Shown piece after piece: positions 1,049-40,001 of a stretch of DNA of 64,000 bases (position 1 is the first letter of the stretch; each line of letters opens with the position of its first letter). Both the position numbers and the translations under genes were made by a program. The notes below the pieces were generated by a model. The model saw only the letters and a program-made list of their open reading frames with translations. It searched no databases and was not told where the DNA came from. Origin of the DNA: Entoloma clypeatum (taxonomy: Eukaryota > Basidiomycota > Agaricomycetes > Agaricales > Entolomataceae); the NCBI GenBank assembly GCA_963565915.1, contig OY751485.1:3534001-3598000 (forward strand), read 5' to 3'.

Positions 1049-2031
1049 CTACTGGGTTTTGGCCTTTTTGGCCGGCGGACCATCATCCTCCGACCCTTCC
1101 TCCGGCTCCTCCGCTTTGTCCTCTGTTCTTTCCTCCACTTTCCTCGCCTGCTTTTTCTCCTCCTCCTCTTTCTCCGCTTGCAGCTCCGCAAGCTCCCCCT
1201 CATCCAACCCCTCGTCTCTCCCTTTATCCTTTTCCTTGTCCCCTTCCTTGTTCTCTTCCACACCTTTTTCCTCCCCTCCGTCATCCTCTGACTCCGGAGC
1301 TGCTGCCTCCAGCAAGAAGTTCCGGTAGGCGAGGTGGTTGTTTAAAATTTGCAGCTGCCAAAGCAGCGCCCAACCAACCCTCACCAACTACTCCTCCTTC
1401 TCCTCCTTCTCCTCCCGGAGCTCCCAGAGCTCCTCCATGACCCCTGCACCGCAGCAGCTTTTTGCCCCGCTCAGGCCCAGAACCTCCATGACGACCTCCT
1501 CCATCTTTCCCTGTTTCCACTTTGCCCGCATCTCGCCGGCCTTCAGGCAAACCCGTTTGCCATCTTTACACCACTGGCATGTGGTGCCCTTCCCCTGCCT
1601 AAGGAGATTGTCAGTAAGAAAAAGAAAATGGAGAAGAGGGTACTTACAATGCCCACTTGCACTCCACCTTCGCCTGCGCACAGGCCTGACATGCCTCCCC
1701 CCAGACCTCTGACTCCTCCGCTCCACTCCCTGCCCTCTGTTTCCCTGTTTTCATTGTCTTTTTCTGCTCCGCCTCCGCCTTTGCCTCTGCCTCTGCCTCC
1801 CTCGCCCTCCTCTCGGCCTGCCTTCTTTCTTGCCTCCTTCTCCTTGCGTATCTGTGCCAGACGGTGCAGGAGCTCCTCTTCGGAGTCGTCCAGATTGGCG
1901 CTGGATTGGGTGAGCTGTGTGCTCGAGCCTTGGGGCATGTTGGTGGTAACTGGAAGAAACCCTTGAAGCCGCTCATCTCTGTTAAATAACTGAGACCACA
2001 TGACCTTGTTTATTTTCTCACGGTCTTCCAT
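1049..2031 (-). pseudogene. Antisense third ORF of family C (Zn2Cys6-like), C1 copy
   Basis: Runs opposite to the element, from an ATG at 2031 to a stop at 1049. Exon 1 (2031-1648) and exon 2 (1598-1049) are separated by a 49-nt intron (1647-1599) with GTAAGT donor, ACTGAC branch site and TTAG acceptor, at exactly the position and length found in the other copy (37667-37619). Exon 1 ends in ACQACAQAKVECKW and exon 2 opens with TTCQWCKDGKRVC, giving C-x2-C-x6-C-x11-C-x2-C-x6-C across the splice, the spacing of fungal Zn2Cys6 DNA-binding clusters. This copy keeps all six cysteines but has a 2-nt deletion in the coiled-coil part of exon 1 and a CAG-to-TAG stop at 1388-1390, so it is broken. The C-terminus is very acidic and ends in AKKAKTQ. 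Confidence 0.7.
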
Positions 2032-6071: not shown

Positions 6072-6440
6072 CTACTCCCATCCATCGTTGCCATTTGGAT
6101 CGGCCCAGGCAGGGTCAACTCGGTTACCCCAATCCTTTATCAGTTCATCGTTTACTGCCGTGGCAAACTCTAAACCTCGAACGGCGAGGCGAAGGCGTCG
6201 ATTCTCGACAGCAAGGGTGTTGGTATAGTTTTTGAGGATGAGCTTCTCCTCAGCGGTGGGGGCGGTTGGCAAATCGGAGAGGGTATGAAGGCGGATATGC
6301 ATCTGCCGGTGGAGAATGTCGGCGACGGAGGTTTCGAGCGCATGGATCTGGTCGCGCATGGAGAGCGCTTCGCCGATGAGGGTGGTGATGGTGGGGTTGA
6401 TATCGGAAGCATCGGTGGAGGCGGCGGTGATGTTGGACAT
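6072..6440 (-). CDS. Third ORF of family A, coiled-coil protein (A1)
   Basis: 122 codons from an ATG at 6440, 117 bp after the pol stop and ending 37 bp before the 3' LTR. The product is hydrophilic, with a predicted helical or coiled-coil stretch (EALSMRDQIHALETSVADIL) in residues ~24-60, a second basic helix (ENRRLRLAVRGLEFA) and a Trp-containing acidic C-terminus. No known domain is recognised. The A2 (19682-20053) and A3 (59965-60336) copies encode 123-aa homologues with mostly conservative replacements, and all three reading frames are open although each gag-pol is broken. That suggests a real element-encoded protein expressed from the genomic or a subgenomic RNA. Function unknown; it carries no signal peptide or membrane segment, so an envelope role is unlikely. 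Confidence 0.6.
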   Translation of the reverse strand: MSNITAASTDASDINPTITTLIGEALSMRDQIHALETSVADILHRQMHIRLHTLSDLPTAPTAEEKLILKNYTNTLAVENRRLRLAVRGLEFATAVNDELIKDWGNRVDPAWADPNGNDGWE

Positions 6441-6557
6441 GGCAGAAATGATGTTTGAAAGGTATAAGAAGAACGGCGTGTTGGGCGAGAAGAGTTGGAG
6501 CGGGGAACTCGATGTGACAGAAGTCGATGTGGAAAATGGCTCTCAAAGTTTGTTCTT

Positions 6558-19681: not shown

Positions 19682-20053
19682 TCACTGTCCCCATCCCTCG
19701 TTGTTGCCAGGATCGGACCAGTTCGGACTCTCCTTGAGGCTCCAATCATATATCAACTCCTCATTGATGGCTACGGCGAGTTCAAGGCCTTTGATGGCCA
19801 GCCGAATACGTCGATTTTTGATGACGAGGGTGCTGGTGTAGTTCCCGAGAATTTGTTTCTTTTTGGGAGTCGGGGCGACGGGGAGATTGGACAACAAATG
19901 AAGTCGGATATTCATCTGGCGATGAAGGAGGTCGGCGAGGGAAGTTTTGAGGGCATCAATTTGGTCTCTCATGGAGAGCGCTTCATTCATAAGGGCGGCG
20001 ATGGCAGGGTTGATGTCGGTGGTGGAGGTGGAGGTAACAATGGTGTTTGACAT
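19682..20053 (-). CDS. Third ORF of family A, coiled-coil protein (A2)
   Basis: 123 codons from the ATG at 20053 (CCGCCATGTC context), starting 133 nt after the pol stop. The frame is also open upstream to 20224, but the A1 homologue supports the ATG at 20053. Conserved blocks shared with A1 and A3 are NEALSMRDQI, HRQM.IRLH, NYT.TL, NRR.RLA and a final NEGWGQ. Replacements between copies are mostly conservative (I/V, L/I, E/D). Predicted helical, cytoplasmic or nuclear, no cysteine motif. Unknown function; see the third-ORF findings. Confidence 0.6.
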   Translation of the reverse strand: MSNTIVTSTSTTDINPAIAALMNEALSMRDQIDALKTSLADLLHRQMNIRLHLLSNLPVAPTPKKKQILGNYTSTLVIKNRRIRLAIKGLELAVAINEELIYDWSLKESPNWSDPGNNEGWGQ

Positions 20054-20186
20054 GGCGGTGAGGATGGTTGAGAGATAAAAGAAGAATGGGGTGGCTATAT
20101 TGGGCAGGAAAAAGACTAGAGTGGGGAACTCGGTGTGTGGTTGACTGATGAGGTCGATACTGCCATGGGTTTTGAGAACTCGTCTT

Positions 20187-23100
20187 TTATCGTGGACGAG
20201 ACAGGTTCTGCCGATGGAAATCATGGATCAAATCTTGAGCGTTCTGAACATTAGCTCGAGGTTCCCATGCGTTCTCTTCTGGGCCATATCCTTCCCACTG
20301 GACGAGGTACTGGATCTTTCCACGGAACTTTCGAGACTCTAGGATCATAGACACATGGTACTCTTCTCGTCCTTCGACAATGATCAGATCAGGGGCTGGT
20401 TTCTTTTTCTGGATGGCGTACTTCGGAGTTTCATATGGTGACAACAGGGTCTCGTTGAACACAGGGTGAATCATCTTCCAAGTCTTCGGAAGATCAAGAA
20501 GGTACGCGCTAGCTCCTTTCTTCTCTAGGACTTTGAATGGTCCATGTCGGAGTGCATCAAGTTTCTTTGAGGGGCGATCGGTCCTGATGTTAGTCCCTTC
20601 CAGCCACACCTTGTCTCCGATGCGGTAGTCCCGATACGGACTTTGCCGTGTGTCAACTGTCTTCTTCATCTGATCCTGTGCTTGTTTCAGCACAGCATTG
20701 GCTTCTTCTCGTGCCTGTTTGAGTTTTTTCAAGAAGTTGTTGGCAGCTGGGTTGGTATCTTCTAACACGAGTTCTCCCTTCCAAGGATGTAAACCATAGT
20801 TGAGGTAGAACGGGGTGTCCTTCGTGGCCTGATGTTCTTTGTCATTGTACTGGAACTCTGCGATTGTGATCCACTCAGCCCAATCATCCTGTAAATGGTT
20901 GACAAAGTTCCATAAGAACGCTTCCGTTTCCTGATGTGATCGCTCGGCCTGTCCATCAGTCTGTGGGTGGTACGCGGTGGACAGGTTCCTCTTGATCCCT
21001 AGCATGCGGCAGAGTATCTCCATGAACTTCGCAGCGAACTGCGGTCCCCTATCGCTGATGATCTTCTTGGGGATCCCATGAAGCTTCCATATCTGATCCC
21101 GATAGATCTTGGCTAATCCTTCAGCTGATAATTCCACGGTTGTCGGAATGAGATGGAGCATCTTCAAATGTCTATCTGTGATGACCAGAATCGCATTCTT
21201 TCCATCGGACTCTGGTATTGGTCCCACGACGTCGATCCCTATGTCTTCCCATGGATGACTTGGTGCTGCATGGGGATGTAGCGGAGCATGTCGTTTCTGT
21301 CTGTTGATCTTGTTGTGTTGACAGGTGTCACAACCCTTTATGTACTTCTTCACATCATGCAGGATAGTAGGCCACCAGTAGGTACAAGTGAGGAGTTCAT
21401 GTGTCCGATATTGTCCTGGATGTCCAGCCACTGGTGCATCATGTGATTCAAACATCAGTTCTTGACGCAGTTGTGGGTCTGGTGGAACATAGACTCGTTT
21501 GCCTGCATATGTGATGCCGTTTTCCTGTTGATACCAATGAGGATTCTTCTTTAGACCCTGGGCTACTTCTGTCTCCATGCGGTTTGAACCCTTGATGTGT
21601 GTGATCCACAGATTTTCGATGGTCGTGATGTTTCCAATTTTGATGGAATCAGATGTTTCACCCCCTTCAAAGAATTGTTCCTCCGTGAACATCTCCATTT
21701 GTACCACATCTTCTGATTCCAACCGTTTCAAGAATAGTCCCTCCTTGAGCATTTGGTCACTGTCTTGTGGTTCGAGTTCCGCTTCATACCAGGGTAAGCG
21801 CGACAGGATGTCCGCTTTTGCATTGGTCTTGCCAGGTACATGTCGTAATTCAAAGTCATAGTCTTGTAACTTCATTTTCCAGCATCGCTGTCGTCGATTC
21901 AGGTCCTGAGGATGACGGAAATATTCCAGGTTCTTGTGATCAGTCAAGATTTCGAAATGTTCCCTGGCTTCGAGCAGATAGTGTCTCCAATCTGTTAATG
22001 CTTCCATGACCGCCAGGAGCTCCTTGTTGTATATCTCATAATTCTGTTCAGCCGCGGACATGGTCCGCGACAAGAACGCAATGGGGTGCCATTTGTCGTC
22101 TTGCTTCTGAGAGAGTACTGCTCCAATTGCATAGCCCGATGCATCGGTTTCAACCCTGAACTGTCTCTCTGATTTTGGTAATGCCAAGACTGGTGCCGAT
22201 GTAATTGCCCGTATGAGACCTTCAAAGGCTTGCTGCTCTGTTGGTCCCCAAGTAAATGCCGTACCACCTGTGAGCGCGGTGAGAGGTTTTGCAATGTTTG
22301 AGTACCCTTCAATAAAACATTGATAGAAGTTGGCAAATCCAAGGAACTTCTGAACTTCCTTTTTTGATGTGGGTGCTTGCCAGTTTCGGATTGTATCCAT
22401 CTTCTCAGTTTCCATCTCGACACGTCCCTCACCAACCACATATCCCAATATAGGACATTTCGTTACTTCCCATAAACACTTCTTCTCCTTTAGGAACAAA
22501 TCATTGTCCGATAGAATCTGTAGGATTTCTTTGGTGTTTCGCGCGAGTTCTTCCTTGGTTTTACCGATAACCACGATGTCATCCATGTAGATCATGCAGA
22601 TACGTCGGCGGATCTGGTCCCGGAATAGACTAGCCATCATTTGAGAGAATGTTCCCGGGGAGTTGCAAAGACTGAAAAACATGACCAATGGTTCAAACAA
22701 TCCTCGACTGGTGAGGAAGGCAGCTTTCCATTCATCGCCCTCCTTAATCTGGACGTTGTTATAGCCCCACATGATGTCCATTTTATTGAAGTAGACTGCA
22801 TCTTTCAGCACGTCCAGGAGATCAGATATTCATGGGAGTGGGAACTTGTCTTTGACCGTGAATTTATTGACCATGCGGTAATCTTGTACCAATCATTTGG
22901 AGCCATCCTTCTTGTTGATGAAGAAGCAAGGGGAGGCATACAGGGATTTGGATGGGTGGATCTTTCCTGTTGCTAGACCCTCGTCAATGAATGTGTCCAA
23001 TTCCTCTTGTTCCTTTTGTGTCATAGGATATGTATTTCCCCCTAGTTCCTTTGGTGCGTCCGGTGTAAGTTCAATACCATGGTCCCATTCCCTCTCCTTT

Positions 23101-26498: not shown

Positions 26499-27413
26499 TC
26501 AGGTTGCCATGTTGTGCACGGCGTCGTCGTCAAATTCGTATGGCTCGCCCTCAAGATCTGCATAGCCAGAGCCAAGACACTCATAGTCATAATGTCCAGG
26601 CGCCTTCTTCTCGCACTTTTCGCACTGATAGAGTGCACACTGACACTCAATGTGTCCTTTAGCTCCGCACATGCCGCATTGGTGCCCTTTGTCAATGTGT
26701 GGCCATCCTGCAGGACAGCGCCAAGGTCTGCTCGGTGAGTGAGCGCGTCCGTGTGCGTCAATCTCGTAGCCAACACAATCGGGTTCGTTGGTGAGGTCGA
26801 TGGGGATTTGATATGAGGAACCATGTCCGAGTGGGACAGACATGATCGTGCATATGGTTTTTCTTCTGGAGTGCTTAGCAACTCCAAGGGACGGTTTCTT
26901 TCCTTTCACGTCAGTCTTGACGCTGGAAAGGCTTCGGTCGCTGGTTAAGGGCAACACAGATTTGGCGGGGGAAGGGGTAGTCAGGGGGTCAGGGTTTCTG
27001 ATGACAAGGGGAACTTGGTTAGGGACGGGGGTCGGTTCAGGGGTGGGTTCGGGTATGGGGACCATCGGGGTAGGGGGTCTTGGGGCGGGATTTATGAGCG
27101 CAAGGTCGGGATAGTTGGAGCGTGTGGGGAACAGTCTTTCAAAACGTCGGTAGACTCCTCTGTCTACCAGAAGATCAGTGTGATTGTCAATGAGGCGGGC
27201 GATAGAGGCAGAAGTGTTGTAATGGTACTCCCGGATAGCAATGAGTCCATACAATGCATTGACCAGAAACTGGTCTGTTTCGTCTTCAAGTCTTCCAAGG
27301 ATGTTGTTCTCGTCTTCGGGGTTGGTGAATAGGTTTAGGAGTTGGGACCGTCTGGTGTGTCTGTTGGTGTTGAAGCGCACTTCTTCGGGGGAGGCAATGC
27401 AGAGGTTGGACAT
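26499..27413 (-). CDS. Third ORF of element B: proline-rich protein with two zinc knuckles
   Basis: About 304 codons from the ATG at 27413 (ACCATGTCC context); the frame is open further up to 27515, overlapping the pol end. It starts ~30 nt after the expected pol stop and ends 41 bp before the 3' LTR. N-terminal ~120 residues are helical (NILGRLEDETDQFLVNALYG), then a Pro-rich linker (PEPTPEPTPVPNQVP), and a C-terminal cysteine domain: CGMCGAKGHIECQC fits C-x2-C-x4-H-x4-C and CEKCEKKAPGHYDYEC fits C-x2-C-x6-H-x4-C. The end is acidic. The frame is intact although gag and pol are broken. A nucleic-acid-binding accessory protein is plausible, but this is inference from the knuckles; no standard Ty3 domain accounts for it. 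Confidence 0.65.
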   Translation of the reverse strand: MSNLCIASPEEVRFNTNRHTRRSQLLNLFTNPEDENNILGRLEDETDQFLVNALYGLIAIREYHYNTSASIARLIDNHTDLLVDRGVYRRFERLFPTRSNYPDLALINPAPRPPTPMVPIPEPTPEPTPVPNQVPLVIRNPDPLTTPSPAKSVLPLTSDRSLSSVKTDVKGKKPSLGVAKHSRRKTICTIMSVPLGHGSSYQIPIDLTNEPDCVGYEIDAHGRAHSPSRPWRCPAGWPHIDKGHQCGMCGAKGHIECQCALYQCEKCEKKAPGHYDYECLGSGYADLEGEPYEFDDDAVHNMAT

Positions 27414-27442
27414 GGTGATGAGAAGATGTGGATCGTTGGGGT

Positions 27443-30400
27443 TCAAAGGTGGTGGGTCTGTTTGTAAAGACCCAGTGTTTCCTGAGCTCTTTTTAAGTTG
27501 GATTCTGGTTCCCATGTGTTATCCCTTGATGGGTATCCCACCACTTGACCAAATACTTGTACCCTCTGCCCTGTCGCTTATGGGTAAGAACTGCTTCCAC
27601 TTCGTACTTGTGTTCTCCTTCAATCAGATCAGGAGGTGGGTTGTGGAAGTTTGGTCCATCTGTGTCATTTTTCCGATAAGGTGTTAACAAGGAGGCGTGG
27701 AAAACAGGGTGGATCTTCCATTGTTCTGGCAGTTTCAGCTTGTACATCAGGGGCCTGAGCACCTCGGAAATGGTGAAGGGTCCTTCTCTTTTGGGTGCCA
27801 GTTTTCTGGAAGGGTATCCGATTCGGAGGTTCTTCCCTTCTAGCCATACCTGTTCTCCTTTTCCAAACAGAGTGAAGCCTCGTATTGATCTTTCTGCCAT
27901 CATCTGACAGGCCAGTTCGTGCGCTGCCAGTGCTTCATCTCTTGCTTGCTTTAGCTCTTTGAGCCGTTCCTCTATGCTTGGCATGTTCGTCTTATCAAAT
28001 GCCAATGATATGTCTCTTGGTTCGTATCCCATCATTAGATAGAATGGGGATCGTTTTGTCATGGAGTGGGTTCTCTGGTTATGACAGAACTCCATTGTTG
28101 AGTTGTGATTGTGCCATGTTTCAGGATTATTTGAACAGAACATCCAGAAATAGATCTCAAGTTCTTGATTCGCATGTTCCGTTTCTCCATCAGTTTGGGG
28201 GTGGTAAGTCATACTCATCATCAGTTTGATCCCTAGGAGTCGTCCTAATTCTCTGAAGACCTGAGAAGCAAATTGTGGCCCTCTGTCAGACAGAATAGAG
28301 TCTGGGAGTCCAAATCTTTGGTACACGTGGTCCAAATAAAGTTTGGCGGTGAGGGTCGCGTCGGTGGTTTTGGTACAAGGGATGGAAATTACCCCCTTCA
28401 TAGAACCATGGTCTACTATGACCATGATACTGTCAAATCTGTTGCTCTCGGGCAGGTCTGTGATGAAGTCGATCGTTGTCTGTGAGAATGGTCTGGCGTC
28501 CTTTTGTGCCTTGATCGGCATCAATCCAGGGTTTGTGGGGCGTGTGTTGACTTTCATTTGTTGGCAGGTTGCACATCCTCCAACATAATTCTTGATAAAC
28601 ACATACATTCCTGGCCACCAATAGTTTTGCCTAACCAACTCCAAGGTTTTTAGATATCCTGGATGTCTGCTTGGTAAGGAGTCGTGATATCGTTTCATTA
28701 TTTCCCAGCGCAAAGTCTCATCTGGTGGTACATAACATCTGTCATGGAAGAATAATATCCTGTCTTCTGTTCTCCATTCTGATAAATGGGATTTAATCAG
28801 GGGGGTCCCTGATTCTTTTAGGGCGGTGATGGCTTTTGAGAAGAGCTCATTGTTTTCGGTTCCTTTTAGAATATCTCCTTGTAGCTCAAGGTCCACTGTC
28901 TTGACAAAAATGTCATCTGGTAAGACAATGATGTCTTCGTTGTCTGTATCTTCTTTGGGTATATGGTCCGGTCGCCTCGACAAGGCATCAGACTGGATCA
29001 TCTTTGATCCTGGCATGTGTACTAGTTTTAGTTCAAACTCGGAGAGATACAATCTCCACCGTGCTTGCCGTCTGTTCAATTTCTGGGGTTCCTGGTAATA
29101 TGTCAGGTTCTTGTGATCTGATAGAACAACCGTTGGAAATGGTGACCCAAGGAGGTAATGCCTCCAGGTTTCCAGTGATCGGATAATTTCCAAGAGTTCC
29201 CGATCATAGATCTTGTAGTTCCGTTCTGCTGCAGAGAACGAGTGCGATATATACCCGCAGGGGTGCCAGTCTCTGTTTACATCTTGTTGGCGCAGTACTG
29301 CTCCTGTCGCCCATTTGGATGCATCAGATTCTATGATGAATGGTTTGTCAGTGTTTGGCATTAACAATACCGGTGATTCTGCGAATTTGTCCTTTAACGT
29401 GTCAAATGCTGTTTGGCAGTCCTCATTCCATTCCCATTCCTGATCCTTTTTGGTCAGATCATTCAGGGGTTTGGCAATGTCCGAGTAGTGTCCGATAAAC
29501 CTTCGATAGAAGTTCCCAAATCCAAGGAAGCATCTGACCTGCTTCACAGTTACGGGTTCCGGCCATTTTGCTATCCCCAATAACTTAATGGGGTCCATTG
29601 CGATTTCGTTTTCTTTGATAATGAGTCCGAGGTATTTGCACTGCCTGACTCCAAATTCGCATTTTTCCAGGTTGAGATAGAGGTCATTTTCTATCATCTT
29701 TCTGAGTACGCGGAGTGTCCGTCTGGTGTCGTCTTCATTGTTGACTGAGAATATGAAGATGTCGTCCAAATAAATGAGCAACCATCCTTCTTCAAGTGCT
29801 TCTTTGAAGATTTCGTTCATCATCACCTGAAACATGGGTGGCATACCTGCCAGCCCAAAGAAGGCAACCAAGGGTTCGTACAACCCTCGATTGGTTTTGA
29901 ATGCAGCCTTCCATTCATCGCCAGGTTTGATCTGTACGTTGTTGTATCTCCAACGCATGTCCAGTTTAGTAAAGACCTTTGCTCCTTTCAGTTTGTCCAG
30001 TAAATCTCTGACCAGGGGTAACGGGTATGCGTTCTTTACCATTCCTTCGTTCAATTGCCAATAGTCTTGACATGGTCTGAGTTTATCCGAGTCCTTTTTA
30101 GCCACAAAGAAAAAGGGTGATGCCATTGGTGATTTCAAGGGTCTGATGTACCCCTTTCGAAGGTTCTCATCAAGGAATTCATCCAATTTTGTTTGTTCTT
30201 CCAGTGACAAAGGATAAACCTTACAGTCTTTTGGGGTGAAGTCTGGTTTCAAGTCAATTGTGTGGTCCCATGGTTTGTGTTCCGGTAATCTCTCAGATGC
30301 CGTTTTCTCGAACACCTTCCGATACTAATTGTATCGTTCTGGTAGTTCTTTCTTTGGTTTGTCCGCGGTGTCCATATTGTGTGAGAGTTTCTGGGAGATC

Positions 30401-31151: not shown

Positions 31152-31481
31152 TTATTGAAAACCCTGCTTCTCCATCTTGGAGATTAAGGCGTCTTGTTCC
31201 TCATTTGGTAAGTCCTTGAAAATGCCTCGGATATGGGCATATGCATTGGAGGCTTTTTTGAATGTGTTGTTCGCAACCGGGGTCTTTCCTCCTTTGTGTG
31301 CATCAGCACGATGTCCTGCCTGATGGCAGACGAAGCACAACTCTTTCTTGAAGTGGTCGTCTCTCTCTTCGGCAGTCAGCCAGTCGATGTCCATGGCATT
31401 TGGGTCTGGGGCGAAGTGCGTGTTTTGGGGTGCAGGGTTATAGTTAACCTTGAATTTCTTCTTTTCCCCATCGGGCCTGAG
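31152..31481 (-). pseudogene. Element B gag, C-terminal part
   Basis: Contains one CCHC knuckle (CFVCHQAGHRADAH, with the last Cys replaced by His) and ends KMEKQGFQ before a TAA at 31152-31154. The gag frame is cut at 31481 by the family-C insertion and resumes at 39124. Heptamer GGGTTTT (plus 31158-31164, in gag frame as G GGT TTT) is a canonical -1 slip site just before the stop. Confidence 0.85.
31158..31164 (-). promoter_or_regulatory. Candidate -1 frameshift heptamer, element B gag/pol
   Basis: G GGT TTT in gag frame, two codons upstream of the gag stop. Pol lies in the -1 frame, open across this point, so the signal is of the right kind and place. No downstream structure was assessed. 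Confidence 0.5.
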
Positions 31482-32171
31482 TGTTATATCCGTCTCCGAA
31501 TCTCCGATCCACTCCGATCGTCCTCCGACATTCCGGACATCCATTACCTCCGCATCTCCGCACGTTGCCATTGTGCATTTCATATTCATAAATGCCTTTA
31601 TGCATTTCATATTCATATTCCCGTTTACTTATGCATCGCCTTTTCCGCATGGTCCGTTGACTGACATCTCTGATGTTCGTTACAGTCACTGGCAACTTAC
31701 GCCACAACTCCGGACCTACTCCGACCATCTCCGTAAAGTAATATCATTTAGGTATTTAAGCTCGTACCATACCTGTAGTTCCTCAGTTCGAATATCAACA
31801 AAGTTCACTCCTCTACTCCCCGTTCATGCCAGAGATCCTCGCTGTGGTACAATACGCCGACGACATCCTCATCTACTGCTCTTCCTCCATTGTTACCCTT
31901 CGACGAGCTCAGTACTGTGTCCGAGTCACAACTCCGATGTTGTCCGACCATTTCCACGTCAATGTGTCTCTCACCGAGATCTTTCTGAGGACCTCCGCAC
32001 CTCCGACCTCTCCTCCGACCTCCTGAAATTGGGACACCTTATCCAACAAACAGCGGCGCAACACATACATTGAAGCCATGTCCCTCCCCTTTGTCGTTCC
32101 GCTCCGGTCTCAGTTCTACGTCCAACCTCCGACGGACTCCGACGAAGCTCCGACTTTTCACCTACTTAACA
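31482..32171 (+). repeat. 5' LTR of element C
   Basis: 690 bp, TGTTATAT...CTTAACA. Contains TATTTAAG (31753-31760) and, 32 nt after its start, AGTTCGAATAT (31785-31795), the putative self-primer. Confidence 0.93.
31753..31760 (+). promoter_or_regulatory. TATA box of the C 5' LTR
   Basis: TATTTAAG, 32 nt before the 11-nt self-primer. The same sequence is kept in the other C LTR copies. Confidence 0.6.
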
Positions 32172-32173
32172 GT

Positions 32174-32184
32174 ATATTCGAACT
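32174..32184 (+). promoter_or_regulatory. Self-primer binding site of element C
   Basis: ATATTCGAACT begins 2 nt after the LTR and is the exact reverse complement of AGTTCGAATAT at 31785-31795. Confidence 0.75.
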
Positions 32185-32211
32185 CAAACCGTTTTTGGAT
32201 TCCTGCTAGTC

Positions 32212-33369
32212 ATGGCACTCCGAAACACCAAGACAGCAAAAGCCGCAGAAGCTGGCACTTCTAGGCAACAGGTTCTACAAAATGTCGAACAATGTTTAAC
32301 AGAACTATCCCCCGTAACTCCCACTACTCCGACACCTCCGGGTTTTCGGCCCATCACACCTCCGCATAATATTCCGATCCCCACTTCCCCCATAGAATCC
32401 ACACCCCCGTCTCCTCAGAATATTTTCGGCCCACAAGCCCTTGCGGATGCTTTCCTCTTAATGACCAATGAACTCAAACGCAGCAAAGGTCACAAGCATC
32501 ACAAAAAGGCTAAGGATCCGGACACCTTCAACGGTGCTGATCCCCGAAAACTGGACCAGTTCATCCTCCAATGCACATTGTTCTTCCGCGACAACTCCAA
32601 GTATGACGATGACTCTGCCAAAATCACTCTCGCCATCTCTTTCCTCCGAGGCACAGCTCTTGATTATTTTGAGCATTTCATCATCGAACCGGACCCGGAC
32701 AACCCCCTGGACTGGTATGAAGATTGGTCCACATTCCTCCGCATGCTCTGCACGGAATTCGGGGTCATTGACCCTGTTGTGGATGCTGCCGACTCTTTGG
32801 ACAATCTCAAAATGCGCGAAAATCAATATATTCTCAAGTATAATATTGAGTTCACATGCCTTGCTGCCAAAACGCACTGGGACAGCTCCGCCCTGCATCA
32901 CCGGTACTACTCCGGGTTGGCGGAGCGGATTAAAGATGTCCTTGGGACTCAAGCAAAGCCAAGCACGTTACCAGCACTTAGGGAGCTAGCACAGACTATT
33001 GATGCTCGCCACTGGGAACGTCATCGCGAGAAATCCTGCTCCAACAAATCTGCATCCAAATCCGACAAATCCGAAGCTAAAACCCCCTCCGCAAACTCCG
33101 ATAAAAACTCCAAAGCCAAACTGCAGACACAGAACCAGGGCAAACAGTCAAAGCCTTCCTCCGCTCCCAAGTCCGACATCTCCGACAAACTCGGAAAAGA
33201 CGGAAAGCTAACTCCGGAGGAACGCAAACACTGTTTTGACAACAACCTCTGTATGTTTTGTGGCAAAGCTGGACACGTTGCGAAAGATTGCCTGAAGTCT
33301 TTGTTCTCCGCCTCTAAGGCTAAGGCGGGCGCTGCCCAAGCCAAGACCACGGACGAAACAAAAAATTAG
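32212..33369 (+). CDS. Family C gag
   Basis: 385 codons, ATG 27 nt after the primer site, uninterrupted. N-terminal Pro/Thr-rich stretch (~33-70), Ty3-type capsid domain (~95-270: [43 protein letters not shown]), a Lys/Ser-rich linker and one zinc knuckle [14 protein letters not shown] (~345). Gag forms the particle and binds RNA. It ends at a TAG directly after the heptamer AAAAAAT, and pol continues in the -1 frame. Confidence 0.92.
33360..33366 (+). promoter_or_regulatory. -1 frameshift heptamer at gag/pol, element C
   Basis: A AAA AAT in gag frame, followed immediately by the gag stop TAG (33367-33369). Fits the canonical X XXY YYZ slip site; pol is open in the -1 frame from here. Confidence 0.65.
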
Positions 33370-36300
33370 CAGGCAGTCCACAGGACTCTGTACGGCCTGA
33401 GGACTGCGTTGAACCCATCTGTACTACCGCTCTACTCAACGCTTCTGCTCTTTCCGATCCCAATTCCCTCCGTGTCCGACTTACATCTCTGCTTATCTCC
33501 GATTCTTCTCCGATAGCCGCCCTTGTGGACTCCGGCTCTACTCATTGTTTTATTGACTCCTGTTACGCTTTATCCTATAAACTCCCTTTCACCTCCATAC
33601 CTCTGATCGAACTTAAATTATTTGACGGAACGTCCAACTCCGTCATTACTCAGGCGGTTGATCTCCCTGTATACTTTTCCTCCGGTGAATATATGGCCAT
33701 TACAGCCTACGTGACTCCGCTCGATTCCTCCTGTTCTATGGTTCTTGGATACAACTGGCTCACCCGCTACAATCCTATGATTGACTGGGTATTGGGCAGT
33801 ATTACTTTCCGTCCACAGCTCTTGAAGGAGTCTCTGACCTTGACATCTTCTGCCAGGTCAGCTCCGCTACCTCCGCAGACCTCTCCCGATACTCCGACCT
33901 CCGACTCCGGCACACCCACTGCTACTCCGGACGTTGTCCCGAATATTGCATTGATAAATGCAGCCGCATTTGTGCGCGCTTGCAAACTTCCGGGTGCCCA
34001 ATCTTTCTGAATTCACCTCTCCGACCACACAATCTCTGTCCAATCCGTTTCCATGTCCGAGGAACCTCCAGACCTCTCCCATATCCCAGAGGAATATCAC
34101 GATTTTGCCGATGTTTTTAGCAAGACAAAAGCAGACACCCTCGCTCTGCATCGTCCATATGACCTCTGTATCGAGTTAGAAGACGGATCAACTCCCCCTA
34201 TTGGCCCTATGTACTCCATTTCACAATCCAAACTATCTGCCCTGCGAAACTTCATAGACGAACATTTGGCCATTGGTTTCATTCGCCCCTCTCGCTCTCC
34301 ACATGGCACTCCAGTCCTCTTTGTCCGAAAGAAGGACGGTTCCCTCCGCCTGTGCGTCGACTATCGGGGCCTCAACAAAGTTACCAAGAAGGATTGATAC
34401 CCTCTTCCGCTCATCTCCGACCTCCTTTCCACTGCCGGAAAAGCGCGCGTTTATACCACTCTCGATCTCCGGCATGCATATCATCTTGTCCGCATTGCCG
34501 ACAGAGATGAATGGAAAACCACTTTCCGCACTCGTTACGGATCGTTTGAATGGCTTGTTATGCCTTTTGGACTATCCAACGCCCCTGCTGCTTTTCAGCG
34601 ATTTGTGAATGACATCTTCAGTGACCTCCTCAATGTTACAGTGGTGGTCTACCTCGACAACATTCTCATTTACTCCGACGACCCCGCCAAGCACCCCGAC
34701 GATGTCAAGGAAGTTCTCCGACGTCTCTGCAAGAACGGACTTTACGTCTGCTCCGACAAGTGCGAATTTTCTGTCGACACAGTCGAATATCTTGGTTTCA
34801 TCCTTTCTCCCTCCGGTCTCCGCATGTCCAAAACCAAGGTGAAGACCATTCAAGAGTGGCCTGAACCTCGAAAAGTGAAGGACGTACAGTCTTTCCTTGG
34901 ATTCGCAAATTTCTATCAATGTTTCATTCACGGTTATTCGGACATTGTTGTTCCGCTCACCCGACTCACCCGGAAGGGTACTCCGTTCCGTTTCTCCGAC
35001 TCCGCACAGAGTGCATTCAACGAGTTGAAGCTCGCTTTTACCAAAGCACCGGTCCTCACTCATTGGATTCCTGATCGACCTATTATCATCGAGACGGACG
35101 CCTCTGACTATGCACTTGGTGCTATTTTGTCCATCCGGACCTCCAATGAGGAGATACACCCAGTAGCGTTCCACTCCCGCACCTTCACTGCCCCGGAACT
35201 CAACTACGACACGCACGACAAGGAGTTACTTGCTATCCATGAAGCATTCAAGGTATGCCGACATTACCTTGAAGGCTCCGCTGGTCCGATCGACATTGTC
35301 ATGGACCACAAGAACCTGGAGTACTTCGCCACTACAAAGGTTCTCACCCGCCGACAGGCCCGGTGGTCTGAGTTCCTCTCTCAGTTCAATCTCTTGATTC
35401 GCTTCCGCCCCGGACGTCTCGGTACCAAGCCGGACTCTTTGACTAGACGATGGGACATCTATCCCAAAGAGGGGAATAGCGACTATGCATCGGTAAACCC
35501 AAGCAACTTCCGACCAGTCTTTTCCCAAGAACAGCTGTCCACATCTCTCCGAGCTACGGAGTTGTTCACCCCTGTTCTCCGCGCCACAGTCATAATGGAC
35601 ATTGAACAGTTGCACTCCGACATCCTCCGTTCACTCCCATCTGACCCAATCTATGCTGACCATCTCAAGGAGCCCAAACCACACTGGTCTGTAGACTCCG
35701 ACGGTTTCCTCCATCATAGTGGTCGCATTTATGTCCCCGACTCTGATAACCTCCAGCTCCGCATCCTCCGCAACAAGCACGACCATATTCTCTCTGGACA
35801 CCCCGGACAGAACAAGACAGTTAGTCTCATTCAACGAGATTATACTTGGCCTGGTGTTCGAGACTTTGTCAAAAAGTACTGCAAATCCTGCACCACTTGC
35901 ATGCGCTCTAAACCTCAACGCCACAAGCCCTATGGTATGCTGAAGCAACTCCCAGTTCCGAACCTTCCGTGGAACTCCATATCCATGGACTTCATCGAGA
36001 CACTTCCGACCTCCGGCGGTTTTGACACAATCCTTGTTATTGTTGACCGAATGACAAAACAAAGCATTTTTGTTCCGACTACGATCCACTGCACCTCCGA
36101 AGATCTAGCCACCATCCTGCATGTGTTCTCCAAGCACGGAGTACCAGAACATGTCACCTCCGACCGAGGCCCAGAGTTCATCTCCCGCTTTTCCCACTCC
36201 CTCGGAAAAGCCCTCAACATGACTCTGCACTTCACCTCTGGCTACCATCCTGAAGGCGACGGTCAAACCGAACGTACCAACCAAACCTTGGAACAGTACC

Positions 36301-37058
36301 TCTGCATCTTCTGCAACTATCAGCAGGACAACTGGTCCGAGCTACTTCTGCTTGCGGAGTTCGCGTACAACAATGCTCTGAGTGCTACAACCGGGATCTC
36401 GCCCTTCTTTGCCAATAAAGGTTATCATCCGAACCTCTCCGTCCATCCGGAGCGCGACCTCGCATCCGCCCGTGCCCGACAATTTGTCGTAGACCTGGAT
36501 GAGCTTCACCAAGAACTCAAATCTACAATCCTAGAAGCTCAACGACGTTATCAAGGCCCTGCCGATCTCCGGCGTGCTCCACCCCCTCCGCTCGAAGTAG
36601 GACAGCAAGCGTTTGTGAAGGCTAAGTTTTTCCGCACTACACGACCCTTCAAAAAGCTGTCTGAAAAGTACCTTGGCCCCTTTGACATCCTTGCCAGGAA
36701 TGGTACACACTCTTACACCCTCCGACTTCCGGACACCATACGCGGTGTTCACCCCGTTTTCCACATCTCCATGCTGGAGCCATCTGTTCCGAACGACATT
36801 CCAAACCGGACAGTAACTCCGCCTCCTCCGATCGACGTTGAAGGAGAAGTGGAATACGAAATCGCCGAAATTCTTGACACCAAACTGGATCATCGGCGTT
36901 CTTGCAAACTGCTCTACCTAGTCCGTTGGCTAGGCTATGAAGGAACCGATGAGGAACAGTCCTGGCTACCTGCCACGGAACTCGAACACGTGACGGACTT
37001 AGTCGCGGATTTCCACTCCGCGTATCCGGAGAAACCGGGCCCCTTATCATGCCTATAG
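33367..37058 (+). pseudogene. Family C pol (protease-RT-RNase H-integrase-chromodomain)
   Basis: About 1230 codons in the -1 frame to gag. Protease [12 protein letters not shown] (~33520) and VLGYNWL; RT from [10 protein letters not shown], with [11 protein letters not shown] and the active site VVYLDNILIYSDD near 34650; RNase H ETDASDYALGAIL; integrase finger (HPGQNKTVSLIQRDYTWPG...CTTCMRSK), DDE residues (SMDFIETLPTS, SDRGPEF, GQTERTNQTLE) and chromodomain (VEYEIAEILDTKLD...LLYLVRWLGYEG). Two in-frame TGA codons lie at 34008-34010 and 34395-34397 (after KKD, where family members have Arg or similar). The RT motif reads YLDN instead of YLDD, removing a catalytic Asp. 34560-37058 is otherwise uninterrupted. 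Confidence 0.93.
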
Positions 37059-37079
37059 AACCGCGCAAGACACTCATAT

Positions 37080-37110
37080 TGCAAAATAAATAAAATAAAA
37101 AAACAATTAA
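37080..37110 (+). terminator. A-rich AATAAA cluster between convergent pol and antisense ORF
   Basis: Several overlapping AATAAA/AATAAAA words lie between the pol stop (37058) and the antisense ORF stop (37123). A similar cluster is at 1008-1033 in C1. It could supply polyadenylation for a subgenomic pol message; the full-length RNA must read through it. Confidence 0.35.
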
Positions 37111-37122
37111 AGGGGGGAGGGG

Positions 37123-38068
37123 CTACTGGGTTTTGGCCTTTTTGGCCGGCGGACCGTCATCCTCCGACTCTTCCTCCGGTTCTCCCTCCGCCTCCTCTTT
37201 CTCCGCTTGCAGTTCCGCAAGCTCCCCATCTGCCAATCCCTTGACCTCCCCCTTGTCCTTTTCCTTGTCCTCTTCCTCTCCTTCTTCCTCTTCTCCATCC
37301 TCTGTCTCCGACTCCAGAGCCGCTGCCTCCAGCAGGAAATTCCGGTAGGCGAGGTGGTTGTTCATGATTTGTAGCTGCCGGAGCAGCGCCCAACCGACCC
37401 TCGCCGACTGCTCCTCCCTCTCTTCCAGAGCCTCCCAGAGCCCCCGGAGCTCCTCCGCGACCCCTGCGCTGCAGCAGTTTTTCGCCCCGCTCGGGCCCGC
37501 GACCTCTGCAACGGCTTCCTCCGTCCTTCCCCGCTTCCGCTTTGCCCGCGTCTCGCCGGCCCTCAGGCATACCCGTTTGCCATCCTTGCACCGCTGGCAT
37601 GCAGTGCCTTTTCCCTGCCTAAGGAGATTGTCAGTAGGAAAAAGAAAATGGAGAAGTGGGTACTCACAACGCCCACTTGCACTCCACCTTTGCCTGCGCA
37701 GAGGCCTGACACGCCTCCCCCCAGACCTCCGACTCCTCCGCTCCGCTCTCCGCCCTCTGTTTCCCCGCCGTCTTTGCCCTCTTCTTCTCCGCCTCTGCCT
37801 CTGCCTTTGCCTCTGCCTCTGCCTCCCTCGCCCTCCTCTCGGCCTCCGCCTTCTTCCTTGTCTCCGCCTCCTCCTTCTCCTTGTGTACCTGCGCCAGACG
37901 GCGCAGGAGCTCCTCTTCGGAGTCATCGAGGTTGGCGCTGGAGCACGCAGGTTGTGTGTTTGAGTGTTGGGGCATGTTGGTGGTAACTGGAAGAAAACCC
38001 TTGGGCCGCTCATCTCCGTTAAATAACCGAGACCACATGACCTTGTTTATTTTCTCATGGTCTTCCAT
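37123..38068 (-). CDS. Antisense third ORF of family C: spliced Zn2Cys6-like, coiled-coil acidic protein
   Basis: Exon 1 38068-37668 and exon 2 37618-37123 total 897 nt, 298 codons in frame. The 49-nt intron (37667-37619) has GTGAGT donor, ACTGAC branch site and TTAG acceptor. Start chosen at MEDHEKINKVMWSRLF, the first ATG outside the 3' LTR; the frame is also open into the LTR up to 38233. Residues ~45-110 are a charged coiled coil (DDSEEELLRRLAQV, then AEA/KKA repeats). The cysteine region spans the splice: ACQASAQAKVECKW + ALQGKGTACQRCKDGKRVC; the second Cys is Ser here but Cys in the C1 copy. A conserved LLRQLQIMNNHLAYRNFLLE helix and an acidic tail ending AKKAKTQ follow. It is tail-to-tail with pol, 64 bp apart. 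Probably a nuclear DNA-binding-like protein; that is inference from spacing only. Confidence 0.7.
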
Positions 38069-38093
38069 GGGTGTCAGACCTAAGAGGGGAATA

Positions 38094-39123
38094 CTGTTAT
38101 ATCCGTCTCCGAATCTCCGATCCACTCCGATCATCCTCCGACATTCTGGACATCCGTTACCTCCGCATCTCCGCACGTTGCCATTGTGCATTTCATATTC
38201 ATAACTCCATGCCTTTATGCATTTCATATTCATATTCCCGTTTACTTATGCATCGCCTTTTCCACATGGTCCGTTGACCGACATCTCTGATGTTCGTTAC
38301 AGTCACTGGCAACTTACGCCACAACTCCGGACCTACTCCGACCATCTCCGTAAAGTAATATCATTTAGGTATTTAAGCTCGTACCATACCTGTAGTTCCT
38401 CAGTTCGAATATCAACAAAGTTCACTCCTCTACTCCCCGTTCATGCCAGAGATCCTCGCTGTGGTACAATACGCCGACGACATCCTCATCTACTGCTCTT
38501 CCTCCATCGTTACCCTTTGATGAGCTCAGTACTGTGTCCGAGTCACAACTCCGATGTCGTCCGACCATTTCCACATCAATGTGTCTCTCACCAAGATCTT
38601 TCCGAGGACCTCCGCACCTCTGACCTCTCCTCCGACCTCCTGAAATTGGGACACCTTATCCAACAAACGGCGGCGCAACACATATGTTGAAGCCACGTCC
38701 CTCCCCTTCGTTGTTCCTCCGCATTCCTGGAGTTCCACTCCAGTCTCAGTCCTACATCCGACCTCCGATGGACTCCGACAAAGCTCCGACATTTCATCTA
38801 CTTAACAACTTTGGTGAACTTCTATCCATTGTTGATGAGACCCTTGTGGAACCCGATAAAGTAAGCAAACCGATGATTGGGGAATATGGCAATACAACGA
38901 TAAATTTACCTGGTGCTTAATCCAGAAGAATATCTGTAAGGATCAGTTTTGTAATATTGAAATTGGGACATCTTATCCAACAAACGGCGGCGCAACACAT
39001 ATGTTGAAGCCACGTCCCTCCCCTTCATCGTTCCTCCGCATTCCTGGAGTTCCGCTCTGGTCTCAGTTCTACGTCTGACCTCTGACAGACTCCGACGAAG
39101 CTCCGACTTTCACCTACTTAACA
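38094..39123 (+). repeat. 3' LTR of element C, chimeric and enlarged
   Basis: The LTR runs from 38094 to a complete 3' end at 38807 (CTTAACA), then 151 bp of non-LTR sequence (38808-38958), then a second copy of the last ~165 bp of the LTR (38959-39123) ending CTTAACA beside the CTGAG duplication. The 151-bp block appears identical to 52199-52349, where it also directly follows a C-type LTR end. Confidence 0.88.
38808..38958 (+). other. 151-bp block captured inside the C 3' LTR
   Basis: Reads the same as 52199-52349 at every position I compared, although the adjoining LTR parts differ at several sites. At 52 kb the block continues directly into Ty1/copia gag sequence, so it is probably copia-derived and was carried here next to a C LTR. 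Confidence 0.8.
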
Positions 39124-39722: not shown

Positions 39723-40001
39723 TGGGGTGTCTGGGGTCTTTGGTCTGAGTGCAGCAACAGCAACAGCTGGCGGCGGTGGGATTCGTCTCGGGGAGAGATA
39801 AGAGGGTGATGTGGGGTTGACTGGTACGAAAGAGGAGGTTACTCTTCTGTATGGTGTCGGCGGTTGTTGTGGTGTGATGGGTGTGTCAATGAACTCCTGT
39901 TCGTCTTCTGAGTCGGACGAGACGCCAAAGGTTGATCGTCGGGGAGGAATCTTTGCATCTAAAACCGCGGTGGGTTGACGACATAGATCAGCTTGACCTT
40001 T
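39723..40001 (-). other. Element B leader
   Basis: Between the 5' LTR and the first gag ATG. On the element strand it encodes an open, Pro/Ser-rich extension of gag lacking a start codon. Primer site at 39990-39999: AGGTCAAGCT on the element strand, 2 nt inside the LTR, complementary to 10 nt in the LTR (40208-40217 on +), which lies 35 nt after the start of a TATATAAG box (40245-40252 on +). Confidence 0.65.
39990..39999 (-). promoter_or_regulatory. Self-primer binding site of element B
   Basis: 10-nt perfect complement to the predicted transcript start in the B LTR; 2-nt spacer from the LTR, as in families A and C. Confidence 0.65.

Follow-up and report, generated by a model that had tools for sequence, protein, structure and literature searches.

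A predicted spliced antisense gene with a six-cysteine cluster and a one-orientation CTCCG array in a clade of Ty3 elements of Entoloma clypeatum

The literature on antisense open reading frames in LTR retrotransposons goes back to the 1990s, and reviews from 2020 and 2025 still give the function of these frames as unknown (PMC7264820, PMC11963269). Those lying between pol and the 3′ LTR, termed aORF-3R, are known chiefly from plants, with the fungal element Boty as a further case; examples are maize Grande gene23, rice RIRE2, Silene Retand and Botrytis Boty brtn. As far as that account goes, their proteins in general lack clear database similarities, two having SMC and transposase-28 domains, and some products are nuclear (PMC7264820). 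In plant Retand, an antisense frame of the pol–3′ LTR region encodes TRP28, with predicted DNA binding and a suggested regulatory role (PMC11963269). The human retrovirus HTLV-1 has a spliced antisense gene beside its 3′ LTR that encodes a regulator, HBZ, from proven transcripts (PMC1459196). A different kind of precedent is Arabidopsis VANDAL21, where VANC binding and loss of methylation have been shown; the VANC21 motif is dense, of one orientation and family-specific, and it changes between related families (PMC5735166).

Here we describe an antisense gene in a Ty3 element of the basidiomycete Entoloma clypeatum, found in a 64,000-nucleotide stretch of the genome (the window). Like aORF-3R genes, it is antisense, lies between pol and the 3′ LTR, is attached to its element and is kept in most copies; it differs in its six-cysteine cluster, in a conserved intron that splits the cluster and in a motif array over the whole element (the comparison with Boty brtn is by description only; PMC7264820, PMC8365987). 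It shares strand and region with Retand TRP28, but Pfam matched neither TRP28 (PF04195) nor bZIP in the antisense proteins, and the Retand repeats form local tandem arrays whereas here a short motif is written through gag and pol (PMC11963269). With HBZ it shares a spliced antisense layout adjoining the 3′ LTR; HBZ, however, is a bZIP factor of an infectious retrovirus, and our intron is supported by comparison (PMC1459196). The likeness to VANDAL21 is that a short motif, in one orientation, is densely repeated across a transposable-element family, yet the VANC motif is mainly non-coding whereas here the coding regions are filled, and ours is a retrotransposon known from sequence alone, for which binding is proposed by analogy (PMC5735166).

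The earlier note on this DNA knew of no standard Ty3 gene of this kind. Antisense frames at this place have in fact been described, in plants and Boty (PMC7264820). Searches of the openly licensed literature showed no Zn2Cys6-like antisense gene of an LTR retrotransposon among the matches listed. Here an antisense frame encodes a six-cysteine cluster that can be recognised as such, and its own element carries a candidate target motif, which makes the role of the frame directly testable. If the pairing is functional, VANC-like self-recognition would extend to retrotransposons, and a DNA-level code would be superimposed on gag and pol.

The host element and its antisense gene

The element is a chromodomain Ty3 copy with the following parts:

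31482 to 38807, forward strand: whole element, chromodomain Ty3 of Tf1/sushi type
31482 to 32171, forward strand: 5′ LTR, TGTTATATCC...TACTTAACA, with 17 CTCCG in sense and 0 on the other strand
32170 to 33369, forward strand: gag open frame, stop to stop, with weak DUF4939 and zinc-knuckle matches
33324 to 34010, forward strand: protease open frame (RVP_2)
34398 to 37058, forward strand: remainder of pol, with RT (from profile position 61), RNase H, integrase H2C2 and rve
within 34398 to 37058, forward strand: Tf2-1-like SH3 and chromodomain of the pol remainder (Pfam)
38082 to 38093, forward strand: polypurine tract AAGAGGGGAATA, adjoining the 3′ LTR
38095 to 38807, forward strand: 3′ LTR, with 16 CTCCG in sense and 0 on the other strand

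RT, RNase H, H2C2 integrase, SH3_Tf2-1 and chromodomain are all present, the domain set of a Tf1/sushi chromovirus. The pol frame is closed upstream of 34398 and begins inside RT, so the window element is defective. Its 5-base flanks, CTGAG at 31477–31481 and ACTTT at 38808–38812, are unequal and show no target-site duplication, possibly through recombination between copies. Just past the 3′ LTR, at 38958–39117, lies another LTR fragment of this family, which resembles 38641–38807. Elsewhere in the genome (a 60-Mb assembly of 20 contigs), the two ends of the full-length young copy L055 (C13:2834000-2843900) share a 300-nt LTR stretch with 100% identity, and the gag, pol and antisense frames of this copy are all open; together these indicate that the window element's family, family A, moved recently.

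The antisense gene lies past the pol stop (37058), ahead of the polypurine tract:

37976 to 38068, reverse strand: codons 1–31, the N-terminus in the earlier note, in frame in the window copy's subfamily
37668 to 37975, reverse strand: exon 1 from the probable start Met32, with a charged coiled-coil-like stretch and the first half-cluster
37619 to 37667, reverse strand: intron of 49 nt, phase 2, GTGAGT...CTACTGAC...TTAG
37123 to 37618, reverse strand: exon 2, with the second half-cluster, a basic stretch, a coiled-coil-like region and an acidic tail
within 37123 to 37618, reverse strand: end of exon 2, C-terminal PPAKKAKTQ and then the stop
37567 to 37711, reverse strand: six-cysteine region C-x2-C-x6-C-x10-C-x2-C-x6-C, second Cys replaced by Ser here, spanning the intron
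1049 to 2031, reverse strand: second window copy of the antisense gene, with a frameshift and stops, intron and cysteine region recognisable

As first proposed, the two exons of the window copy join in frame (38068–37123, reverse strand; 897 nt, 298 residues) across a 49-nt intron at 37667–37619 with GTGAGT, ACTGAC and TTAG signals. The copy at 1049–2031 had been offered as a second example; its intron and cysteine region are there, but its exons have no single open frame (934 nt), and it is a pseudogene.

We collected 60 family-A copies: a first set of 41 (39 fetched from the best 40 of 152 candidates, with the window copy and the second window copy), four more older copies and 15 copies of a young subfamily. 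The sample consists mostly of best matches and is therefore enriched in intact copies. Judged by 70% identity to the window copy, the gene is attached to the element on the LTR side in 57 of the 60 and on the pol side in 53 (the sequence retrieved for L054 stops short). Variation among copies is lowest in a 30-nt block that holds the polypurine tract.

A GTGAGT or GTAAGT donor and an AG acceptor occur at the same place in 60 of 60 copies. Intron length ranges from 46 to 49 nt in older copies and from 48 to 63 nt in young ones, the longer introns arising through a T-tract. These lengths cover all three phases, while the exon lengths of open copies remain in frame, and family B behaves likewise (introns of 49–57 nt, exons of open copies in frame). 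Such a contrast between a freely drifting intron and frame-keeping exons supports splicing of the predicted gene. No intronless copy was present among those fetched; L048 and L049 looked continuous in a protein search and were considered as processed copies, but they contain the intron.

The earlier note began the protein at the ATG at 38068. The third-position excess of codons 1–31 is small, though their dN/dS is 0.48 (0.30–0.96), a value that leaves some doubt about reading them as a 5′ UTR. A length change puts N-terminal codons (1–22, within codons 1–31) out of frame in 15 of 15 young copies, and lineages B and C begin at a position aligned with Met32. For these reasons the common start is probably Met32 (37975) and codons 1–31 are probably 5′ UTR, although the older subfamily may translate the extension up to 38068. 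The promoter presumably lies in the 3′ LTR.

Selection and a six-cysteine cluster in three lineages

The whole spliced frame is open in 20 of the 41 copies of the first set. Read from Met32, it is open in 36 of 60 (23 of 45 older copies and 13 of 15 young ones, the remaining two being L054, cut by the fetched end, and L060, with a stop). Among open copies, NG86 dN/dS is 0.28 in the antisense frame, far below 1 as the earlier note's proposal required, compared with 1.12 and 0.97 in the other two frames of that strand and 1.25, 0.41 and 1.04 in the sense-strand frames; we think that the sense frame at 0.41 is the one that shares the wobble position with the antisense gene. A codon model (MG) gave 0.297. 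Copies with broken frames have a dN/dS of 0.29, close to that of open copies, which would follow from selection having acted before those copies lost their frames. Compared within one set of six copies, dN/dS was 0.38 for the antisense gene and 0.40 for the pol C-terminus, so the gene is conserved like other element proteins, as in aORF-3R systems. An eight-copy comparison gave 0.73 for pol (antisense 0.35) and was set aside, since two of its copies, L002 and L004, are full of stops in the pol frame. Taken on sequence evidence, the antisense gene is almost certainly real. Many Arg to Trp or Gln changes, the pattern expected of CpG decay, occur in L009–L051 and the window copies and suggest past cytosine methylation in family A.

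The cysteine region has the lowest dN/dS of the gene (0.14–0.15). Each of the six cysteines is kept in 58–60 of 60 aligned copies. The window copy has one Cys replaced by Ser, as the earlier note reported (CQAS-x6-C...C-x2-C-x6-C), at a position that is Cys in 58 of 60. The linker of 11 residues given in the earlier note did not survive: between Cys3 and Cys4 there are 10 residues in the 44 of 60 copies where the six-Cys motif appears when the spliced frame is translated across any stops; in one of these copies, L022, a stop lies inside the motif. Zn2Cys6 clusters follow the pattern C-x2-C-x6-C-x(5-12)-C-x2-C-x(6-8)-C, to which these 44 copies conform. None of 20,000 shuffles of an A protein, and none of 20,000 of the C protein, reproduced the cysteine pattern; together with the low frame-specific dN/dS, this indicates that the gene is not a product of chance.

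Two further lineages were reached through a genome search for paired motifs. The pol of lineage B (L083) is 79–81% identical to that of A and the pol of lineage C (L070/L088, with a gene known from one copy) is 73–76% identical; by sequence, the three lineages form one clade. The B and C genes occupy the same antisense place, and their proteins differ from A nearly everywhere outside the cluster. They nevertheless keep the order C-x2-C-x6-C, phase-2 intron at the same place, C-x2-C-x6-C, acidic tail and basic C-terminus (AKKAKTQ in A, NKKQRTK and NKKQRK in B and C). Each has exactly six cysteines, all within the motif, and the linkers, 8 and 11 residues long, fall within the Zn2Cys6 range. Of the 11 lineage-B copies examined, 9 have an open frame; the exceptions are L069, shifted near its end, and L092, where no donor was found. 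L069 (C1:169146-172164) is accompanied by stretches 97% identical to the E1 element; one of these two Ty3 elements may have inserted into, or next to, the other.

The resemblance to fungal Zn2Cys6 factors (PF00172) extends to the cysteine pattern, a basic patch and a coiled-coil-like stretch. In the Zn_clus profile search, which the earlier note had put forward as a check, no version tested reached the cut-off of 21 bits: A gave no match, the Cys pieces gave 12.6 bits for B and 14.5 bits for C, and half-domains alone gave no match. In the partial, sub-threshold alignments, the first half of B aligned to profile positions 19–35 and the second half of C to positions 2–15; as a weak lead, the order of the halves may be reversed relative to Zn_clus. 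PDB searches with the Cys regions returned nothing meaningful. "Zn2Cys6 factor" is accordingly a resemblance, not membership. The earlier proposal of an element-borne nuclear regulator of this type thus stands as to a spliced antisense gene of the element with Zn2Cys6-type spacing in three lineages, and falls short at the Zn_clus cut-off. The cluster may bind zinc, and the basic C-terminus, which looks like a nuclear localisation signal, makes a nuclear product probable.

A one-orientation CTCCG array

The same elements carry a short motif, (T)CGGAG on one strand and CTCCG(A) on the other, that the earlier note missed and that is the best clue to function. Across the 7.3 kb of the window element (31482–38807), CTCCG occurs 105 times in sense and 10 times in antisense, at 24.6 per kb in the LTR and 10–13 per kb in the gag–protease and pol stretches; CCG/CGG triplets in one orientation number some 230. 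The sense and antisense counts are 131 and 17 in L055, 87 and 3 in lineage B, and 34 and 0 and 25 and 1 in lineage C. Elsewhere in the window, three other Ty3 regions have 6/4, 5/2 and 4/1, and positions 40001–64000 have 29/26. The motif is thus dense, of one orientation and specific to the element family. An antisense C-x2-C-x6-C downstream of pol was found neither in the three other Ty3 elements of the window nor in the distant L077, by a six-frame scan that does recover the half-clusters of B and C and, in A, the intact one.

Shuffles that preserve protein and codon usage never reached the observed CTCCG count (0 of 500 in gag and in pol, for both the window element and L055), which indicates that CTCCG is written into coding DNA beyond codon preference. 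The opposite motif, CGGAG, is also raised in pol, with 5 against 1.9 expected in the window element (8 of 500 shuffles reach the count) and 9 against 3.5 in L055 (0 of 500); it reaches a fifth to a seventh of the CTCCG number there. Bare CCG shows no excess in window gag or pol (302 and 72 of 500 shuffles).

Repeats are often spaced 8–12 bp apart: 47 against 13.8 expected in A, 69 against 22.0 in L055, 38 against 13.3 in B, and 18 against 5.3 and 11 against 3.8 in C, all relative to uniform placement, a control that ignores general clustering. In the 3′ LTR the spacing peaks at 10–11 bp (8 seen, 1.1 expected under uniform placement), with no such peak inside window gag–pol (4 against 3.4). Among six-mers, CTCCGA is the most enriched in lineages A and B, and TCCGCT/CCTCCG in C, a difference of degree between the lineages.

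Genome-wide, the paired motif occurs 987 + 903 times, against 11 + 19 for the reversed control, numbers that are multiplied by element copies. We searched for counter-examples to the link between gene and array in 20 loci cut around motif pairs. L069 and L081–L087 are lineage B or hold a lineage-B gene or pol, and L070 is lineage C. L072–L076 are family-A LTRs (92–95% identical) with no gene or pol match inside the fetched stretch. The remainder belong to an E1-type family (L068, L071) or are distant Ty3 or unassigned (L077–L080); with CTCCG counts in 3 kb of 3/12 and 18/9, and of 7/12, 9/14, 9/13 and 9/13, respectively, they are less dense and less one-sided, L068 (3/12) coming nearest to an exception.

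Proposed self-recognition and its alternatives

Zn2Cys6 factors typically contact CGG triplets, their usual half-site. A conserved six-cysteine protein and CCG/CGG triplets in one orientation in the same elements therefore suggest self-recognition. Gene, intron, purifying selection, conservation in three lineages and array can be read directly from the DNA; for the step beyond them, that the element encodes a factor which binds DNA at the element's own CGGA arrays, the best-supported explanation, we put the probability at roughly 0.5. In such a scheme, this clade of chromodomain Ty3 elements would carry a spliced accessory gene, antisense and between pol and the 3′ LTR, transcribed from the 3′ LTR. 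Its product would be a nuclear protein with a charged coiled coil, a split six-cysteine cluster, a basic patch, an acidic tail and a C-terminal NLS-like AKKAK/NKKQR. By binding (T)CGGA(G) repeats, which run in one orientation at 10–25 per kb over the LTRs and coding regions of the window element, the protein would mark its own copies and might act as a transcriptional activator or, like VANC, as an anti-silencer of the element. More tentatively, and with the odds somewhat against it, a fast-evolving protein and the motif flanks may diverge together, which would confine regulation or un-silencing to each family's own members; it is equally tentative that the target array of such a co-diverging pair was written into the LTRs and, synonymously, into gag and pol.

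Several observations tell against self-recognition. Gene and array co-occur in one clade only, with a single origin, and may therefore be co-inherited without a functional link. Opposite-strand CGGAG in pol, though far less numerous, also exceeds synonymous expectation, bare CCG in the gag and pol of the window element does not, the 10–11-bp LTR peak is missing from window gag–pol, and even the best Zn_clus score, 14.5 bits, misses the cut-off of 21. The sites fill coding regions, unlike those of VANC21; VANDAL21 is, moreover, a plant transposable element of another class.

DNA-binding sites also need no strict orientation, and an RNA-level motif fits it too. The main rival, though an unlikely one, is accordingly that the protein (or Gag) binds an oriented CUCCGA in the sense genomic RNA, in an accessory role in its export, stability or packaging. 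Strict strand orientation across LTR, gag and pol, a protein rich in lysine and arginine and the synonymous-level enrichment in coding RNA are all consistent with such a role, whereas the 3′ LTR spacing of 10–11 bp, about one helical turn (though not in gag–pol), and the likeness of the six-Cys pattern to DNA-binding clusters point back to DNA.

Slightly less probable again is an HBZ-like regulator that would affect LTR or host transcription by way of protein partners, with some other use for the array. The layout is the same, an antisense spliced gene adjoining the 3′ LTR with a coiled-coil-like and acidic protein; this reading leaves array and cysteines unexplained, the bZIP search drew a blank, and HBZ, to our knowledge, has no zinc cluster.

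Capture of a host Zn-cluster gene that is retained for an unrelated accessory task, such as a structural one or integration targeting, seems improbable. In its favour, fungi are rich in Zn2Cys6 factors, and the lineages differ strongly outside the cysteines. Weighing lightly against it, the own-genome protein matches listed (131 of 331 candidates) are all at least 56% identical, all 60 own-genome matches inspected are element copies or fragments, and residues 116–236 of one family-A copy match nothing at E ≤ 10 in the protein collection. A search of that collection with five spliced family-A copies, which passes over single-exon pieces outside its length limits, found nothing among the best 7989 candidates by shared words, probably low-complexity ones. 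As a control, pol gave 5463 matches among 7981 candidates scored; the named relatives among the matches listed are mostly Agaricomycetes (Coprinellus, Trametes, Leucocoprinus, Lentinula, Pisolithus), so the collection holds such fungi, and one bears a bacterial metagenome label.

That the stretch encodes no functional protein, its GA-rich low complexity holding several frames open or an antisense RNA alone being made, is very improbable and, unless the alignments are at fault, largely refuted by the frame-specific dN/dS, the in-frame exons of open copies beside a drifting intron and the six cysteines conserved across three lineages.

The other Ty3 elements of the window have sense frames downstream of pol. 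Two of them carry similar ORFs just after pol (6072–6542 and 19682–20227, both reverse strand; 156 and 181 residues) that share an EALSMRDQI...HRQM.IRLH stretch. In the third, a sense ORF of 339 residues follows pol (26499–27518, reverse strand) and ends in a zinc-knuckle-like CGMCGAKGHIECQC...CEKC, suggestive of a gag-like gene placed after pol.
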